From: Bradyrhizobium roseum
GTDB taxonomy: Bacteria > Pseudomonadota > Alphaproteobacteria > Rhizobiales > Xanthobacteraceae
NCBI RefSeq assembly: GCF_030413175.1
Contig: NZ_CP129212.1
Span: 682,001-746,000 of the forward strand
Length of the DNA: 64,000 bases
Reading direction: 5' to 3'
The translations under genes and the position numbers were made by a program. Shown here in pieces: positions 3,868 to 36,824 of this stretch. The notes below the pieces were generated by a model. That model saw nothing but the letters and a program-made list of their open reading frames with translations, ran no database searches and was not told where the DNA came from. The number at the start of each line of letters is the position of its first letter. The first letter of the stretch is position 1.

Positions 3868-4767
3868 ATGTTCACCGTCGCCTCGCTCTGGATTCCCTTC
3901 ACCATCGTCGCTGCGCTCGGCCAGGTCGCGCGCAATGCGATGCAACGATCGTTGACGGGGCCGCTCGGCACCTGGGGCGCGACCAATATCCGCTTCCTGT
4001 TCGGCTTCCCGTTCTCGATCGTGTTCTTTGTGGTTGTCGTGGCCGTCACCGGCGACGGCGTGCCTTGGCCGACGGCGACTTTCTGGCCGTGGCTGCTGTT
4101 GGGTGCGCTGAGCCAGATCCTCGCCACCGGCCTGATGCTGCTGGCGATGAACGATCGCTCGTTCGTGGTGACGACGGCCTACCTGAAGACCGAGGCGATC
4201 CAGACCGCGATCTTCGGCTTCATTTTTCTAGGCGATCATCTGACGCTGCTGAAGGTGGTTGCCATCATGATCGCCACCATCGGCGTGGTGATCACGGCGC
4301 TGCGGCCGGGCGGCGAGAAGGGGTTTGCCGAACTGAAGCCGACCATCATCGGCCTGGTCGCCGCCGGCTGTTTCGCGCTGTCGGCGATCGGCTTTCGCGG
4401 TGCCATCATCACGGTGCCGGGCGTGTCGTTCGTGACGGCAGCGTCCTACACGCTGGTGTGGGGATTGTTCGTGCAGACGCTGGTCCTGACCGTCTATCTG
4501 GTCGCCCGCGCGCCCGATGTGCTCAAGAAGATTTTTGGATTGTGGAAGCCATCGATGCTCGCGGGCTTCATGGGCGCGTTCGCCTCGCAGTTCTGGTTTT
4601 TGGCGTTCGCGCTGACGGCGGCGGCCAACGTGCGCACGCTGGCGTTGGTCGAGGTGCTGTTCGCGCAGGCCGTGTCGTATTATTCGTTCAAGCAGCCGCT
4701 GTCGGCGCGTGAACTGTTTGGCATCGCGCTGATCGTGGCGGGTGTGGCGCTGCTGGTGGCGGTGTAG
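3868..4767 (+). CDS. EamA/DMT-family membrane exporter
   Basis: A 299-residue integral membrane protein with about ten hydrophobic helices arranged as two EamA repeats, as in drug/metabolite transporters (for example SFVVTTAYLKTEAIQTAIFGF and the late ANVRTLALVEVLFAQAVSYYSF, a typical EamA helix region). It probably exports a small metabolite; the substrate cannot be read from sequence. ATG at 3868 was chosen because it places the first helix directly at the N-terminus. The open frame extends upstream through the repeat and is not credible as protein. It is flanked by palindromic repeats on both sides, so it is likely a single-gene unit. Confidence 0.85.
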   Translation: MFTVASLWIPFTIVAALGQVARNAMQRSLTGPLGTWGATNIRFLFGFPFSIVFFVVVVAVTGDGVPWPTATFWPWLLLGALSQILATGLMLLAMNDRSFVVTTAYLKTEAIQTAIFGFIFLGDHLTLLKVVAIMIATIGVVITALRPGGEKGFAELKPTIIGLVAAGCFALSAIGFRGAIITVPGVSFVTAASYTLVWGLFVQTLVLTVYLVARAPDVLKKIFGLWKPSMLAGFMGAFASQFWFLAFALTAAANVRTLALVEVLFAQAVSYYSFKQPLSARELFGIALIVAGVALLVAV

Positions 4768-31673: not shown

Positions 31674-32321
31674 ATGGCAATTGATTCATCCAAATTCTTC
31701 GACTCCATTCGCATCAAGCCCAACAAGCAGAGCGCGAAGCAGCAGGCGCAGGCGCGCGAGGAAGCCGCCATGTGCGAGTGGGCGGGCTGCCCGAACAAGG
31801 GCCCTCATCGCGCGCCGAAGGGCCGGGAGAATTCGCGGGAGTATTTTCACTTCTGTCTCAACCACGTCCGCGAATACAACCAGAACTACAATTTCTTCCA
31901 GGGCATGAACGCCGACGCCGTCGCGCGCTACCAGAAGGATGCGCTGACCGGCCACCGTCCGACCTGGAAGATGGGCGCCAACACGGCCGGCAAGAAGGGC
32001 AAGCAGGCCGCCGAGGATTTCGACGGCGCCTCCGATCCGTTCAGCATGTTCTCCGAACTCAACGGCCGCGGCCGCTGGCGGCCAGGCCCAGGCGCCGAGG
32101 CCAAGGTCGAAACCCGCAAGGTGATGAACGCCGAGCGCAAGGCGCTGCAGGTGATGGGCCTCACCGCCGAAGCCACCCTCGAGGACGTCAAGGCCAAGTA
32201 CAAGGCGCTGGTCAAGCAGCACCACCCCGACGCCAATGGCGGCGACCGCTCCACCGAGGACCGCCTGATCGAGATCATCAAGGCGTATAATTATCTGAAG
32301 ACGGTGGTGCGCGGCGCGTAG
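31674..32321 (+). CDS. J-domain (DnaJ-like) protein with N-terminal Cys/His cluster
   Basis: A 215-residue co-chaperone. The C-terminal J domain (about 155-212) has the essential HPD at 184-186, so it should stimulate a DnaK ATPase. The N-terminal 70 residues contain C34, C39, H45, C61 and H64 in a Pro/Gly-poor setting, resembling a zinc-binding knuckle. DnaJ repeats and the G/F region are missing. Such proteins are conserved in Rhizobiales. It is divergent from bolA with a 110-base gap that must hold both promoters. Client or partner is unknown. Confidence 0.88.
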   Translation: MAIDSSKFFDSIRIKPNKQSAKQQAQAREEAAMCEWAGCPNKGPHRAPKGRENSREYFHFCLNHVREYNQNYNFFQGMNADAVARYQKDALTGHRPTWKMGANTAGKKGKQAAEDFDGASDPFSMFSELNGRGRWRPGPGAEAKVETRKVMNAERKALQVMGLTAEATLEDVKAKYKALVKQHHPDANGGDRSTEDRLIEIIKAYNYLKTVVRGA

Positions 32322-32339
32322 TTGCCAGCCAAGTCTCTC

Positions 32340-32461
32340 GTCGTCCCGGCGAACGCCGGAACCTATATGCCGCAGCCTCTCGATTGAGAACCGTAGTCGG
32401 CGAACTCCTTCAACCCACCTCCGCCTGTGGTTATGGATTCCGGCTCAAGGCCGGGATGACG
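32340..32461. repeat. Palindromic intergenic repeat, family A, second copy
   Basis: A 122-base element of the same plan as 3647-3766. It starts CGTCGTCCCGGCGAACGCCG and ends with CCGGGATGACG, and each end can form a hairpin. It separates the J-domain gene from the convergent citrate synthase gene. The two copies differ in their centres but keep the arms, which is typical of mobile non-autonomous repeats. Confidence 0.75.
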
Positions 32462-32504
32462 GCGGAGTTTGTGGCTCCGCCGTCACTTAAACTACCGGCG
32501 CCTC

Positions 32505-33596
32505 TCACCCCGGCATCGGCCCGATATACGCCGAACTCGGCCGTATCAACCTGCCGCCGCGCTGCTGCTCACGCGCATGCGCGGTCCAGCCGGCGGCGCG
32601 GGCGACGGCAAAAATCGGCGTGAACGCCTGACGCGGGATCTTCAGCGCGTCGAGCAGGATCGCGGTGAAGAACTCCACATTGGTATCGAGCGGGCGGTCG
32701 GGATTCTTCTTCCGCAACGCGCTGCGGATATAGGCCTCGACCTCGCCGGCAAACGGCAGGTCGGTGCCTTCGCCGGCCAACTGTTCGATCGCGCTTTTCA
32801 GCACGTCGGCGCGCGGATCGCGGACGCGGTAGACGCGATGGCCAAATCCCATCAGCCGCTCGCCGCGCGCCAGCGCGCTGTCGACCCAGGGCTTGATGCG
32901 CTCGCGGGAGCCGATCGCGTCGAGCATTTCCAGCACCGGCTCCGGCGCGCCGCCATGCAGCGGCCCGGTCAGCGCGCAATAGCCGGCGGTGACGGCGGCG
33001 AACAAATCGGCTTGCGTCGACGCCACCACCCGCGTCGCGAAGGTGGAGGCGTTCATGCCGTGGTCGCACACCGTGACCAAATAGGCGTCCAGTGCCGCCA
33101 CCTCGCGCGCGTTCGGCTTGCGGCCGAGCATCATCGACAGTGTGTCGGCGGCATGGCTGGCGGTGGGATCGGGCGCGACCGGTTCGCCGCCCCTGACCTG
33201 CTGCACCAGGGCGCCGGCGATCACCGGAAACGCGCCGACGATGGTGGCCTCGTGCGCCAGGCCTGCTTCCGCGCGAAGCCCCGCGACCGCCGCGCGAAAA
33301 CCATCGACGATCGAGAGCCCGCGCGTGATGCCGAGCAGGTCCGGTAGCCGCGCAAAGGCGCGTTCGCGGCCGGCGCCGAGCGCGGCGCGGACCGCGGCTT
33401 CGCCGACCGGCTGGCCGGTGCCGCCGCTCCATAGCCGGGCGGTCACGCCTTCAAACCCGGTCTTGCGGGCAAGGTCGCCGACCCGCTCGCCGGCGATGAT
33501 CAGTTCGCCGCGCTCGCCGTCGACATGGCTGAGCACGGTTTCTGCGGCGGGAATTCCGTCCAGGCCGATCGGGGTCTTTGAAAGCTGGATGTTCAT
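32505..33596 (-). CDS. Citrate synthase-like enzyme (no HTH)
   Basis: A 363-residue member of the citrate/2-methylcitrate synthase family. Catalytic His214 is in GPLHGGA and His253 in FGHRVYRVRDPR. The third catalytic position is Glu308 (TNVEFF) where classic citrate synthase has Asp. DHGMNAST (178-185) and the Arg-containing GWTAH end are present. Length is short of the TCA enzyme by about 70 residues, as in the small citrate synthase-like group. ATG at 33596 has an AGGAGGG site. It is divergent from an HTH-fused paralogue. Confidence 0.88.
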   Translation of the reverse strand: MNIQLSKTPIGLDGIPAAETVLSHVDGERGELIIAGERVGDLARKTGFEGVTARLWSGGTGQPVGEAAVRAALGAGRERAFARLPDLLGITRGLSIVDGFRAAVAGLRAEAGLAHEATIVGAFPVIAGALVQQVRGGEPVAPDPTASHAADTLSMMLGRKPNAREVAALDAYLVTVCDHGMNASTFATRVVASTQADLFAAVTAGYCALTGPLHGGAPEPVLEMLDAIGSRERIKPWVDSALARGERLMGFGHRVYRVRDPRADVLKSAIEQLAGEGTDLPFAGEVEAYIRSALRKKNPDRPLDTNVEFFTAILLDALKIPRQAFTPIFAVARAAGWTAHAREQQRGGRLIRPSSAYIGPMPG

Positions 33597-33632
33597 GAGA
33601 GCCCTCCTTTGTCGGTTTCAAAGTCGAGCCTC

Positions 33633-33667
33633 TCGACAGATTGATCAATCTTGATTATGTAAATCAA
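33633..33667 (+). promoter_or_regulatory. Promoter with nested palindromes before the HTH-citrate synthase gene
   Basis: TCGACA (33633-33638), a 17-base spacer and TATGTA (33656-33661) form a promoter whose start point would be at or one base before the ATG at 33669, so the mRNA may be leaderless. A perfect 14-base palindrome, AGATTGATCAATCT (33638-33651), occupies the spacer. A second dyad, TTGATT-ATGTA-AATCAA (33651-33667), covers the -10. Binding here could repress or, MerR-like, remodel the promoter. Confidence 0.55.
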
Positions 33668-33668
33668 T

Positions 33669-34886
33669 ATGAAAAAATCCGCCGGCCTGTACCTCTCGGC
33701 GCGCGAGGCCTCGGCCGAACTCGCGATTTCGCAGGCCACCCTCTACGCCTACGTCAGCCGTGGGCTGATCCGCTCGGAGCCGTCGGAGGATTCCCGCAGC
33801 CACCGCTACCGGGCCGAGGACGTCCGCACGCTGAAGGAGCGGCGCACGCCGGCGCCCGAGCCGCGCGGCATGCGCAGTTTCGACGCCGATCTGCCGATGC
33901 TGGATTCGGCCGTCGGGACCATCACCGAGGACGGCGCGATCTATCGCGGCGTCAACTGCATCGATCTGGCCGAGCGCGACACCCTCGAACACGCCGCGAC
34001 GCTGTTGTGGGACGTCACCGGCGTCGATCCGTTCGAGCAGGACAATTGCCCTGTTGTGTCGGATGAAATGCGCGCTGTCGCCGAGGCCACGAGCAAGGCC
34101 AACGCGATCGATCGCGCGATATCCGTGCTGGCGCTGGCGGCCGCTGCCGACCCGCGCGCCTTCACCCGGGCGCCCGACGGACGCGCGATGGTCGGTGGCC
34201 GCATCGTGCGGCTGGTGGTCGCGACCATGCTGAACGCGAAATCATCGGCAAAACCGCTTCACGTGCAGATCGCACGCGTCTGGGCCCCTGACAACAAGCA
34301 TGCGCCGGACCTGATCCGCCGCGCGCTAGTGCTGCTGGCGGATCACGAACTGAACGCCTCGACCTTCACCGTCCGCTGTGCGGCCTCGACCGGACTCAAC
34401 CTCTTTGACTCCGTGATCGCCGGCCTGGTGGCGCTGAAGGGCCCGAAGCACGGCGGCGCCGGCGTGCTGGCGGCGCAGCTCCTGAAGACGCTGGCGAATG
34501 GCGAGGTCGCTCCCGTAATCCGCGAGCGCGTCGCGCTCGGCGAACGTTTTGCCGGCTTCGGTCACGGCGTCTACAAGCACGGCGATCCCCGCGCGCGGGC
34601 GCTGCTGGCGGCGCTGGCGCGCTGCGGCGCGGACCGCAAGTTCACCCATGAAATCCCCGAGAGCATTGCCGAAGCCACCGGCGAGTTCGTCAATATCGAC
34701 TACGCGCTGGCCGTGCTGGTGCACACGCTCGGCCTGCCCCCCGGCCATGAACTGGTGCTGTTCGCCATGGCGCGGACGGTGGGGTGGATCGCGCATGCCT
34801 GCGAACAATTGCAGCACGGCCGGCTGATCCGGCCCCGCGCGCGCTATGTCGGTCCGGCGCCCGGGCGCGGCCCGGGGCGGGCCTGA
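33669..34886 (+). CDS. Citrate synthase-like protein with N-terminal MerR-type helix-turn-helix
   Basis: A 405-residue fusion. Residues 6-58 form an HTH (LYLSAREASAELAISQATLYAYVSR, written here as spanning 8-31, then HRYRAEDVRTL). A linker rich in Pro/Arg follows, then a citrate synthase fold from about residue 70. His261 (KGPKHGGA), His299 (FGHG) and Asp344 (VNID) are in the catalytic positions. The residue after His299 is Gly, while the partner and most synthases have Arg there. A DNA-binding enzyme or an enzyme-derived sensor is likely. No Shine-Dalgarno is visible before ATG 33669. Confidence 0.85.
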   Translation: MKKSAGLYLSAREASAELAISQATLYAYVSRGLIRSEPSEDSRSHRYRAEDVRTLKERRTPAPEPRGMRSFDADLPMLDSAVGTITEDGAIYRGVNCIDLAERDTLEHAATLLWDVTGVDPFEQDNCPVVSDEMRAVAEATSKANAIDRAISVLALAAAADPRAFTRAPDGRAMVGGRIVRLVVATMLNAKSSAKPLHVQIARVWAPDNKHAPDLIRRALVLLADHELNASTFTVRCAASTGLNLFDSVIAGLVALKGPKHGGAGVLAAQLLKTLANGEVAPVIRERVALGERFAGFGHGVYKHGDPRARALLAALARCGADRKFTHEIPESIAEATGEFVNIDYALAVLVHTLGLPPGHELVLFAMARTVGWIAHACEQLQHGRLIRPRARYVGPAPGRGPGRA

Positions 34887-35528
34887 TCAGGAAGCCTTTG
34901 CGATCCGGCGGCGGCGCAACGCCCAGACGCCGAGGGCCATGATCGCGGCCGCGAACACGGCAAGCATCCACAAATGCTTGCCGACGTGCTGGTGGTGCGG
35001 CAGGCCGGCATAGTGATGCAGGGCCGAGACCGCGAGCACGCCCGGCAGCACATGCGCGCCCGCCCAGGCCAACACCGCGGGAATATTGACGCCGAAGAAC
35101 AGCGCGGGGCGCATCCCGAGCGCGCCCGCCGTGACCGGCACGAAAGCGCGGATCGGAGGCACAAAACGCCCGAAAAACACCGCCAACGTCCCCCAGCGAT
35201 GGAAAAACGCCTCGCTCTGCGCCATTGCGGCGGGATATCTCGCCATCGGCCAGGCATTGAGGATTTCGCGTTGCGCGCGGTGGCCGGTCCAGAACGCCGA
35301 ACCGTCGCCGATCAGGGCGCCTGTGATCGCCGCCGCCAGCACACCCCACAGCGTCAGTTCGCCGCCCGGCACCAGCGCGCTCAGGGCCAGGATGATGGTC
35401 GAGCCCGGCACCAGCGCCCCCACCACGGGGGTGGCCTCGAACAGGGCCGCCATAAATAATGTCAGATAGGCCAGCCACGGGTGGGCGGAAACAAATGCAA
35501 TCACGGGATCAAGGAACGAAGTCACCAT
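34887..35528 (-). CDS. DedA family membrane protein
   Basis: A 213-residue polytopic inner-membrane protein of the DedA/VTT group. Markers are the re-entrant region VVGALVPGSTII, LIGDGSAFWTGHR and the FGRFVPPIRAFVPVTAGA helix-loop with its conserved Arg residues. Homologues help keep membrane potential and flip phospholipids or undecaprenyl phosphate. Its stop directly abuts the HTH-citrate synthase stop (34886/34887), so the two genes are convergent with no spacer. Confidence 0.9.
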   Translation of the reverse strand: MVTSFLDPVIAFVSAHPWLAYLTLFMAALFEATPVVGALVPGSTIILALSALVPGGELTLWGVLAAAITGALIGDGSAFWTGHRAQREILNAWPMARYPAAMAQSEAFFHRWGTLAVFFGRFVPPIRAFVPVTAGALGMRPALFFGVNIPAVLAWAGAHVLPGVLAVSALHHYAGLPHHQHVGKHLWMLAVFAAAIMALGVWALRRRRIAKAS

Positions 35529-35825
35529 CTGCCTTCCGCCAAAGGGGCTAACGCACCAGAGCTATCAAGCCCTGACCACGGCTGAAAGTGCCTGAGAGGC
35601 CCGATTTCAGCCGGCGGGGCACCCAGGTAGGCAAAAGTGCGGCGTGATTCGCAGGGCAGCCCTCCAAAAACCTGATACACAGCCTATCTAGATGATAAGG
35701 CGACGGAACTTTCATTTCGCCGCGGGCTTCTGCCGGCCCGTGCTCTCTGCTAAGTTGACCCAAGCCCCCATCCGCAGCCATTCAACAAATCTGGTTTCGG
35801 GAACGCCCGGGATCTCGGAGGATTG
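35529..35825. other. Divergent gap between dedA and cobS, with a hairpin at 35579-35613
   Basis: A 297-base region between dedA (minus) and cobS (plus). A 9-bp stem CGGCTGAAA/TTTCAGCCG with a 17-base loop lies at 35579-35613, 51 bases ahead of dedA, and would be in its leader. No cobalamin riboswitch box was recognised. A short open frame exists on the minus strand here but lacks a good ribosome site and coherent protein features. Confidence 0.4.
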
Positions 35826-36824
35826 ATGACGACCGCCGCCATGAGCAAAGTTACGCAGCCCGCCGGATTGCCCGACATGAAGGTGTCCGTTCGGCAGGTA
35901 TTTGGAATCGATACTGATCTCGAAGTGCCCGCCTATTCGGAAGTCGATCCGCATGTGCCGGATGTCGATGCTGACTACCGGTTTGACCGCGCCACCACGC
36001 TCGCGATCCTCGCCGGTTTCGCCCACAACCGTCGCGTCATGGTCACCGGCTATCACGGCACCGGCAAGTCGACGCATATCGAACAGGTCGCAGCACGGCT
36101 GAACTGGCCCTGCGTGCGCGTCAACCTCGACAGCCACATCAGCCGTATCGACCTCGTCGGCAAGGACTCGATCGTGGTCCGTGACGGCAAGCAGGTCACT
36201 GAATTCCGCGACGGCATCCTGCCCTGGGCGCTGCAACACAATATCGCGCTTGTGTTCGACGAATATGACGCCGGCCGTCCCGACGTGATGTTCGTGATCC
36301 AGCGCGTGCTGGAAGTCTCTGGCCGCCTGACGCTGCTCGACCAGAACAAGGTGATCAAGCCGCATCCGGCATTCCGGCTGTTCTCGACCGCCAACACGGT
36401 CGGCCTCGGCGATACGTCGGGCCTCTATCACGGCACCCAGCAGATCAACCAGGGCCAGATGGACCGCTGGTCGATCGTCACCACGCTGAATTATCTGGCG
36501 CATGACGAGGAAGTCGAGATCGTGCTCGCGAAGGCCAAGCACTATCGCACGCAGGAAGGCCGCGACATCGTCAACAAGATGGTGCGGCTCGCCGATCTCA
36601 CCCGCAACGCGTTCGCCAATGGCGACCTCTCGACGGTGATGAGCCCGCGCACGGTGATCACCTGGGCCGAGAACGCCGACATCTTCAGCGATATCGGCTT
36701 CGCGTTCCGCGTCACCTTCCTCAACAAGTGCGACGAACTGGAACGGCCGCTGGTGGCCGAATTCTATCAGCGCTGCTTCAATCAGGAGCTGCCCGAGAGC
36801 TCGGTGAACGTGGCGCTGAGCTAG
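35826..36824 (+). CDS. cobS: Cobaltochelatase ATPase subunit CobS
   Basis: AAA+ subunit of the aerobic CobNST chelatase that inserts cobalt into hydrogenobyrinate a,c-diamide. The 332-residue protein has Walker A GYHGTGKS (75-82), Walker [10 protein letters not shown] (about 138-146), the sensor [14 protein letters not shown], and a conserved C-terminus ([18 protein letters not shown]). ATG at 35826 follows GGAGGATTG; an earlier TTG at 35823 is possible. cobT lies about 1 kb downstream; usually the two are adjacent, and here an insertion divides them. Confidence 0.95.

Follow-up and report, generated by a model that had tools for sequence, protein, structure and literature searches.

A helix-turn-helix–citrate synthase fusion of Bradyrhizobium roseum and the conserved 24-bp box at its start codon: a predicted autoregulated transcription factor

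The fusion gene, its divergent neighbour and the gap between them

The window analysed in this study is the whole stretch of 64,000 nucleotides that corresponds to positions 682001-746000 of the single-contig 7.3-Mb genome of Bradyrhizobium roseum. An open reading frame on its plus strand (33669-34886; 405 amino acids plus the stop codon) encodes a protein in which a MerR-like winged helix-turn-helix (HTH) is joined to a citrate-synthase domain. The earlier note on this DNA had recognized this fusion correctly and had placed the start of the feature at 33597. This position belongs to the intergenic gap, as the open reading frame begins at 33669 and an in-frame stop codon lies just 5′ of it, at 33660-33662. 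The stop codon of the fusion gene abuts that of a convergent VTT-domain gene (34887-35528) with 0 bases between them (34884-34889).

The Pfam analysis of the fusion protein assigned residues 75-390 (33891-34838) to Citrate_synt with 208 bits. The HTH_17 model matched residues 8-59 (33690-33845) with 23.7 bits, just under its gathering score of 27, and MerR_1 matched residues 10-56 with 20.7 bits, just below its cut-off of 21.6. HTH_17 was the best HTH model in all 10 relatives scanned and exceeded its cut-off in four of them, and MerR_1 did so in 3 of the 10. The HTH region carries the family signature TLYAYVSRG. In the AlphaFold2 model of the protein (mean pLDDT 84, pTM 0.76), residues 11-59 form a helix, a second helix, two strands and a further helix, residues 60-76 (33846-33896) form a low-confidence segment (pLDDT below 50) predicted to be a flexible linker, and the citrate-synthase fold follows. 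The coiled-coil dimer helix of MerR proteins is absent from the model, in which residue 59 is followed by the linker and then by citrate synthase. A Foldseek search showed that the solved structures nearest to the model are PrpC enzymes, the matches being 2-methylcitrate and citrate synthases with E down to 5e-15. The HTH part alone gave no match to PDB sequences at E up to 5. Among the 50 plasmid records listed of 74, such genes go by the names 'citrate synthase family protein', 'citrate synthase' or 'citrate/2-methylcitrate synthase'.

The divergent gene on the minus strand (32505-33596) encodes the HTH-free paralogue that had been described before. Citrate_synt is its sole Pfam domain, its score of 430 bits lies above the cut-off of 332 for the citrate synthase family NF009005, and its best solved relative is 2c6x, CITRATE SYNTHASE 1. 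The AAGGAGG motif at 33604-33610 (minus strand), noticed by eye, is the likely ribosome-binding site of this CitA-like gene. Its product has Glu in place of the catalytic Asp of citrate synthases (NVEFF), and all 17 of the CitA partners that were aligned have Glu at this position. One further citrate-synthase match was found in the genome, at 3494197.

The two genes are separated by an intergenic gap of 72 bp. The perfect 14-base palindrome AGATTGATCAATCT, as reported earlier, is present exactly at 33638-33651, and so is a second dyad, the inverted repeat TTGATT-N5-AATCAA at 33651-33667, which covers a -10-like hexamer. This hexamer, TATGTA (33656-33661, plus strand), was seen by eye and lies 17 bp from the -35-like TCGACA (33633-33638, plus strand), the last base of which is shared with the palindrome. 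The promoter that had been proposed from these elements stood in part: both hexamers are present at the stated spacing, but the sigma-70 consensus scan of 33500-33800 called no promoter, TCGACA being absent from its calls, and four of the six -10 columns are variable among relatives. If the promoter is real, the transcript of the fusion gene would begin at the ATG or right beside it and would be leaderless, which fits both the in-frame stop codon just upstream and the lack of a visible ribosome-binding site. An RNA element was set aside since the Rfam scan of 32000-36500 returned no match at E up to 0.5.

Conservation and specificity of the 24-bp box

For the comparative analysis, 105 loci encoding HTH-citrate synthase fusions were collected, of which 53 were of the Bradyrhizobium type and 52 were others. 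Entries from the window's own genome (L001-L003, L050) and matches without the HTH part (L065-L076, L079) were left out. The 105 loci include the same or nearly the same strains (L042 and L061 with identical proteins; L016 and L052), so the counts given below are not independent.

The palindrome proved not to be the conserved unit, as the exact 14-mer was found in only 35 of the 53 Bradyrhizobium-type loci. The ATTGATCAAT part was present in 44, TTGATCAATCTTGATTA in 49, and a 24-bp box to the right of the 14-mer in 50 of them; the orthologous gaps thus do carry the palindromic region to which the earlier note had drawn attention. In the window, the box is TCAATCTTGAT-TATGTAA-ATCAAT (33645-33668, plus strand), a predicted operator that abuts the start codon and whose right part is formed by the TTGATT-N5-AATCAA repeat. 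Its consensus is TCAATnTTGAT-N7-ATCAAY. All 50 boxes end directly at the ATG. Among the 40 distinct 45-base upstream sequences of this type, columns -28 to -12 and -6 to -1 were near-constant and columns -11 to -7 varied. The TCGACA hexamer was well kept among these close orthologues. Meanwhile, the reported -10 element TATGTA (-13 to -8) comprises two fixed columns and four that rank with the most variable columns in the block.

The 200 bp upstream of the fusion genes contained the exact box in 80 of the 105 loci and a version with one mismatch in 10 more. In L106 and L115, the exact box spans the automatically chosen start codon, and these two were added to the 90. The box with at most one mismatch was therefore present upstream in 92 of 105 loci (53/53 of the Bradyrhizobium type and 39/52 of the others), compared with 0 of 2100 dinucleotide shuffles. 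Its origin lies well before Bradyrhizobium. Outside the Bradyrhizobium-type loci, the distance from the box to the ATG ranged from -2 to 58. The core TTGATCAA, which lies within the palindrome and extends the box leftward when it precedes the next TTGA, was found in 49 of the 53 Bradyrhizobium-type loci and in 7 of the 52 others, including all five loci with prpB or acnD partners described below. Outside the phylum, a plasmid copy from Deinococcus has TCAATCTTGAT-N6-ATCAAG just upstream of the start.

The box, at up to one mismatch, was missing right upstream of the fusion in 13 of the 105 loci. L043 and L049 have three mismatches, L121 has N6 instead of N7, and in L119 the box lies 2.9 kb upstream; no box was found at L044, L046, L047, L077, L078, L096, L114, L116 and L122. 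The fusion genes of genomes G513 and G433 (L178 and L179) are also without it. The annotation of one box-bearing gene deserves a comment: in Agrobacterium fabrum C58 (plasmid pAt, ATU_RS25370, L181:3887-5164), the RefSeq start lies upstream of an exact box (3948-3971) and overlaps the beginning of its divergent citrate synthase neighbour, so that it has probably been placed too far upstream.

The exact box was then sought in 398 proteobacterial genomes. The search returned 45 sites in 44 genomes, against 2 sites for the reversed-pattern control, and 40 of the 45 precede an HTH-citrate synthase match by no more than 150 bp. One more site, found in G464, precedes the second fusion gene of this genome by 2.9 kb and is situated between a divergent 2-hydroxyacid dehydrogenase gene and a run of SDR, MFS and HTH-citrate synthase genes; it was read as intergenic, though a mechanical antisense open reading frame covers it. 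The remaining four sites (L171-L174) fall inside open reading frames of genomes with no HTH-citrate synthase among the matches listed, and as operators they were set aside as chance occurrences. One of them (L171:1835-1858) is near the 3′ end of an open reading frame which by eye has an AcnB-like start. Two others (L172:2240-2263 and L173:2212-2235, both minus strand) occupy a like place in similar, by eye secretin-like, open reading frames of two genomes of one genus, and were also taken as chance.

Fusions were among the matches listed for at least 51 of the 398 genomes, and weaker ones may be missing from this number. The exact box occurred in 40 of these 51 genomes and in 4 of the 347 others (Fisher p 4e-40, a value overstated by the relatedness of the genomes). 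Given an expectation of 0.07 matches to AGATTGATCAATCT in the window when up to two mismatches are allowed, the conservation across the 53 and the 105 loci and this specificity in 398 genomes, the chance that the palindrome arose by accident is negligible, and conservation led us to discard this explanation. A wide regulon was set aside as well: where a genome has fusions, its exact sites never outnumber the fusion genes listed for it, and the genome of the window has one exact site and 0 sites at one mismatch. Its 7 sites at two mismatches (reversed control, 0) tell against the local reading proposed below.

Partner genes, active-site residues and the recognition helix

The gene divergent from the fusion is citA in 53 of 53 Bradyrhizobium-type loci and in 26 of the 52 others, the gaps being 45-108 bp by the chosen starts. 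The partners at the remaining 26 loci were identified by family scan; a dagger (†) marks those assigned only by eye or through their resemblance to a scanned partner. Four loci have a prpB partner (L084, L087, L089, L090†) and, further on in the same direction, a citrate-synthase match; the one next to prpB of L087 (L153) was scanned and scored above the 2-methylcitrate synthase cut-off. The partner in L091 is acnD. These five prpB/acnD loci lie outside the class to which the window's genome belongs, and the window's own fusion adjoins citA, not prp genes. A class III CoA-transferase is the partner in five loci (L062, L083, L086†, L092, L108), tctC, coding for a tricarboxylate receptor, in two (L063, L121), a 2-hydroxyacid dehydrogenase in three (L064, L117†, L118, in the last followed by tctC) and an SDR†-MFS run in L119. 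Other neighbours are the citrate symporter gene citMHS near five Pseudomonas-type loci (L114, scanned; L044†, L046†, L047†, L116†), a cation efflux gene (L096, L122), a methyltransferase-like† gene (L115) and a same-strand TctC-like† gene (L077, L078). As a side observation, the best Pfam stretch of four CoA-transferase partners (L157:8594-9994, L160:5821-7230, L161:5018-6406 and L167:4619-6025) starts at residue 208-215, and what precedes it may represent a degenerate second domain.

The box was retained while the partner changed between citA, prpB, acnD, CoA-transferase, tctC and hydroxyacid dehydrogenase. A maximum-likelihood tree was built from 65 fusion rows, 62 of them shared with the residue alignment described below, and 5 CitA rows. 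The CitA rows were set apart from the fusions (100/100), the prpB/acnD group formed one clade of 5 (starred in the tree), and the fusions with citA partners appeared in several separate places; long branches come together close to the CitA join and also at L121, which makes the deep placements unsure. Judged by these sequence comparisons, the box travels with the fusion gene and not with its partner.

The active-site residues were compared in an alignment of 67 fusion proteins, namely the window's own and 66 from the 105 loci. The arginines that bind oxaloacetate or citrate in citrate synthase (329, 401 and 421 of the pig enzyme) were kept in 67, 66 and 67 of the 67 proteins. The catalytic His, His and Asp, likewise numbered after the pig enzyme, were kept in 59, 62 and 60, and members lacking catalytic residues still had the substrate arginines. 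Catalytic losses were found in lineages whose box is absent or variant (L044, L047, L114, L116, L077, L078, L121, L122, L096). L088 is the exception, with the box present and Asn replacing the second His. The proteins of L178 and L179 are more decayed and were examined by short-motif searches alone, which found DPR and RPR strings; an R-x-x-G-W arginine motif was not found in L178, so that the binding arginines may not be universal in the fusions. These two and L122 (G264), whose scanned neighbour is the cation efflux gene, belong to one genus with decayed citrate-synthase motifs and no box.

As the protein of the window has all six residues, its own sequence makes catalysis possible. It might be a working citrate or methylcitrate synthase with a second job, the repression of its own promoter; in such a trigger enzyme, catalysis would be part of the signal. 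The retention of the catalytic residues in most of the family, and the fact that the best structural neighbours are PrpC enzymes, agree with this. On the other side, the arginines persist in aligned members that have lost the catalytic residues, none of the cut-offs of the 21 NCBIfam families listed was reached (e.g. TIGR01800, 162 vs 421 bits), and an enzyme paralogue adjoins the fusion. We regard the two-job reading as a real possibility, though one with the odds against it.

The boxless Pseudomonas-type clade has the recognition helix YVGRK, and the box-bearing members have YVSRG or close variants; this association concerns one clade and counts as one event. L077, L078, L096 and L122 are boxless yet have a normal-looking recognition helix. 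Upstream of three boxless Pseudomonas-type genes with citMHS nearby (L047, L114, L116), another conserved stretch with a TTTACA...TGTAAA dyad was seen by eye.

These data bear on the question of whether the box could be the site of another regulator or a mere promoter, and the HTH a relic. The box does overlap the promoter region and contains TATAAT in 7 of the 105 loci, and some boxless fusion genes keep the helix. However, the exact box was found in just four of the 347 genomes without a listed fusion, each time inside an open reading frame, it follows the fusion gene across changing neighbours, and the helix is altered in the boxless Pseudomonas-type clade. This reading is very improbable.

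The proposed regulator and its relation to known systems

Taken together, the comparisons argue that the fusion is probably a local, autoregulated transcription factor which acts through the box and whose citrate-synthase dimer senses a tricarboxylate such as citrate or 2-methylcitrate. The earlier note had suggested that the fusion controls itself and its divergent neighbour through the DNA of the gap; with 50 of the 53 close orthologous gaps containing the box, the comparative evidence makes this very probable. In the proposed mechanism, the union of a MerR-like winged HTH with citrate synthase would yield a transcription factor that binds the single box (33645-33668) in the 72-bp gap through the paired half-sites TTGAT/ATCAA. 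Citrate synthase is a constitutive dimer, and by analogy the fusion would dimerize via its citrate-synthase domain, which would supply the two-fold symmetry for the paired half-sites. The bound protein would control its own gene and the divergent citrate synthase gene. Its default action at its own gene would most likely be repression, as the box covers the promoter spacer, the -10 element and the gene start; repression of the partner gene would be less strongly supported than that of its own gene. Finally, ligand binding in the pocket may drive the open-to-closed movement of the citrate-synthase dimer, which would shift the HTHs and alter DNA binding.

The mode of action proposed earlier, in which the protein works in the spacer as MerR regulators do, did not hold up as well. 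A true MerR activator that twists the promoter spacer would account for the MerR-like HTH and for a box lying between and over the -35-like and -10-like hexamers. However, MerR activators need a stretched spacer of 19-20 bp. The spacer here is 17 bp and repression fits it better than MerR-type activation; moreover, the -10 columns are variable, the box-to-ATG distance differs widely outside the Bradyrhizobium-type loci, and the predicted structure proceeds from the HTH through a linker to the citrate-synthase domain with no MerR coiled coil. We thus consider such an activator improbable. The fusion resembles the MerR family in its first helix-turn-helix and wing (the MerR_1 match of 20.7 bits, just below the cut-off), and differs from it in the missing dimer helix of the model and in the spacer length.

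The kept substrate arginines and the neighbouring genes point to a tricarboxylate-type ligand, which may be citrate, 2-methylcitrate or oxaloacetate. Many of the partners and neighbours handle tricarboxylates (citA, prpB, prpC, acnD, tctC, citMHS); the CoA-transferase (five loci) and 2-hydroxyacid dehydrogenase (three loci) partners fit such a ligand less directly. Acyl-CoA or citrate had been named as the signal before, and of these the tricarboxylate is favoured by the prpB, acnD, tctC and citMHS neighbours, and acyl-CoA less so. Sensing of acetyl- or propionyl-CoA would agree with the ability of the citrate-synthase fold to bind acyl-CoA, with the prpB-prpC and class III CoA-transferase partners, which are linked to acyl-CoA, and with the use of propionyl-CoA by PrpR of M. 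tuberculosis, as stated in PMC9765439. Nevertheless, the carboxylate-binding arginines are the most constant of the pocket residues checked, and what the neighbouring TctC and citMHS carry are tricarboxylates rather than CoA esters, so that an acyl-CoA ligand is unlikely.

Enzyme-derived transcription factors are a known kind of regulator that includes BirA, MocR/GabR, PutA and NadR. As in these proteins, a DNA-binding piece is fused in the present case to a whole enzyme domain that would serve as the sensor; to our knowledge, none of the four is known with a citrate-synthase domain. Two features of the kind were found in the fusion: a DNA-binding domain joined to an enzyme domain, according to Pfam and the structural model, and a specific predicted operator tied to the gene, according to comparative genomics alone. 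In fold and active-site motifs, the fusion is like the CitA-type citrate synthases (2c6x; M. tuberculosis 6wgy and 8gmf) and PrpC (3o8j), and unlike them it has an N-terminal HTH and is placed by the tree in a clade separate from that of the five CitA rows.

The PrpR regulators of the 2-methylcitrate cycle offer another comparison. According to PMC9765439, they are of the Fis type in Salmonella, of the GntR type in Pseudomonas aeruginosa and of the Fe-S type in M. tuberculosis. The PrpR proteins of Salmonella and Corynebacterium have 2-methylcitrate as their co-activator, and the GntR-type PrpR of Pseudomonas is a repressor. A methylcitrate-sensing regulator is plausible in the light of this co-activation and of the repressor role in Pseudomonas. 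The five prpB/acnD relatives are like PrpR in that the fusion gene is local and is proposed to respond to a pathway intermediate such as 2-methylcitrate. Unlike PrpR, the fusion has as its presumed sensor a homologue of the synthase of the pathway itself, a feature not stated for any of these PrpR proteins, and in the lineage of the window it is paired with citA and not with prp genes. We file the fusion as a predicted enzyme-derived transcription factor, the citrate-synthase version of which was not found described in the titles and abstract openings of the papers listed by the literature searches; the study of malonate and propionate catabolism by Suvorova, Ravcheev and Gelfand (2012, J Bacteriol) may predict the regulator or its motif.

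With somewhat less assurance than for the local regulator, we favour the wider view that these fusions form a widespread class of bacterial regulators in which a complete citrate-synthase dimer is the tricarboxylate sensor. An ancestral fusion gene of this kind would have been passed, together with its 24-bp operator, between pathways, from citrate synthase to the methylcitrate cycle, tricarboxylate uptake and CoA transfer, with some lineages losing the catalytic residues while the arginines stayed. The class would have been hidden by names such as 'citrate synthase family protein', and the regulator reading would correct the annotation of many such genes. The prediction is testable, as it comprises an operator, named loci (Bradyrhizobium sp. 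BTAi1, L041; Agrobacterium fabrum C58, ATU_RS25370, L181) and candidate ligands, and the fusion might serve as a biosensor of citrate or 2-methylcitrate. The general view is that central carbon metabolism is monitored mostly by dedicated sensors; in this case, the founding enzyme of the pathway seems itself to have been turned into a sensor and a switch.
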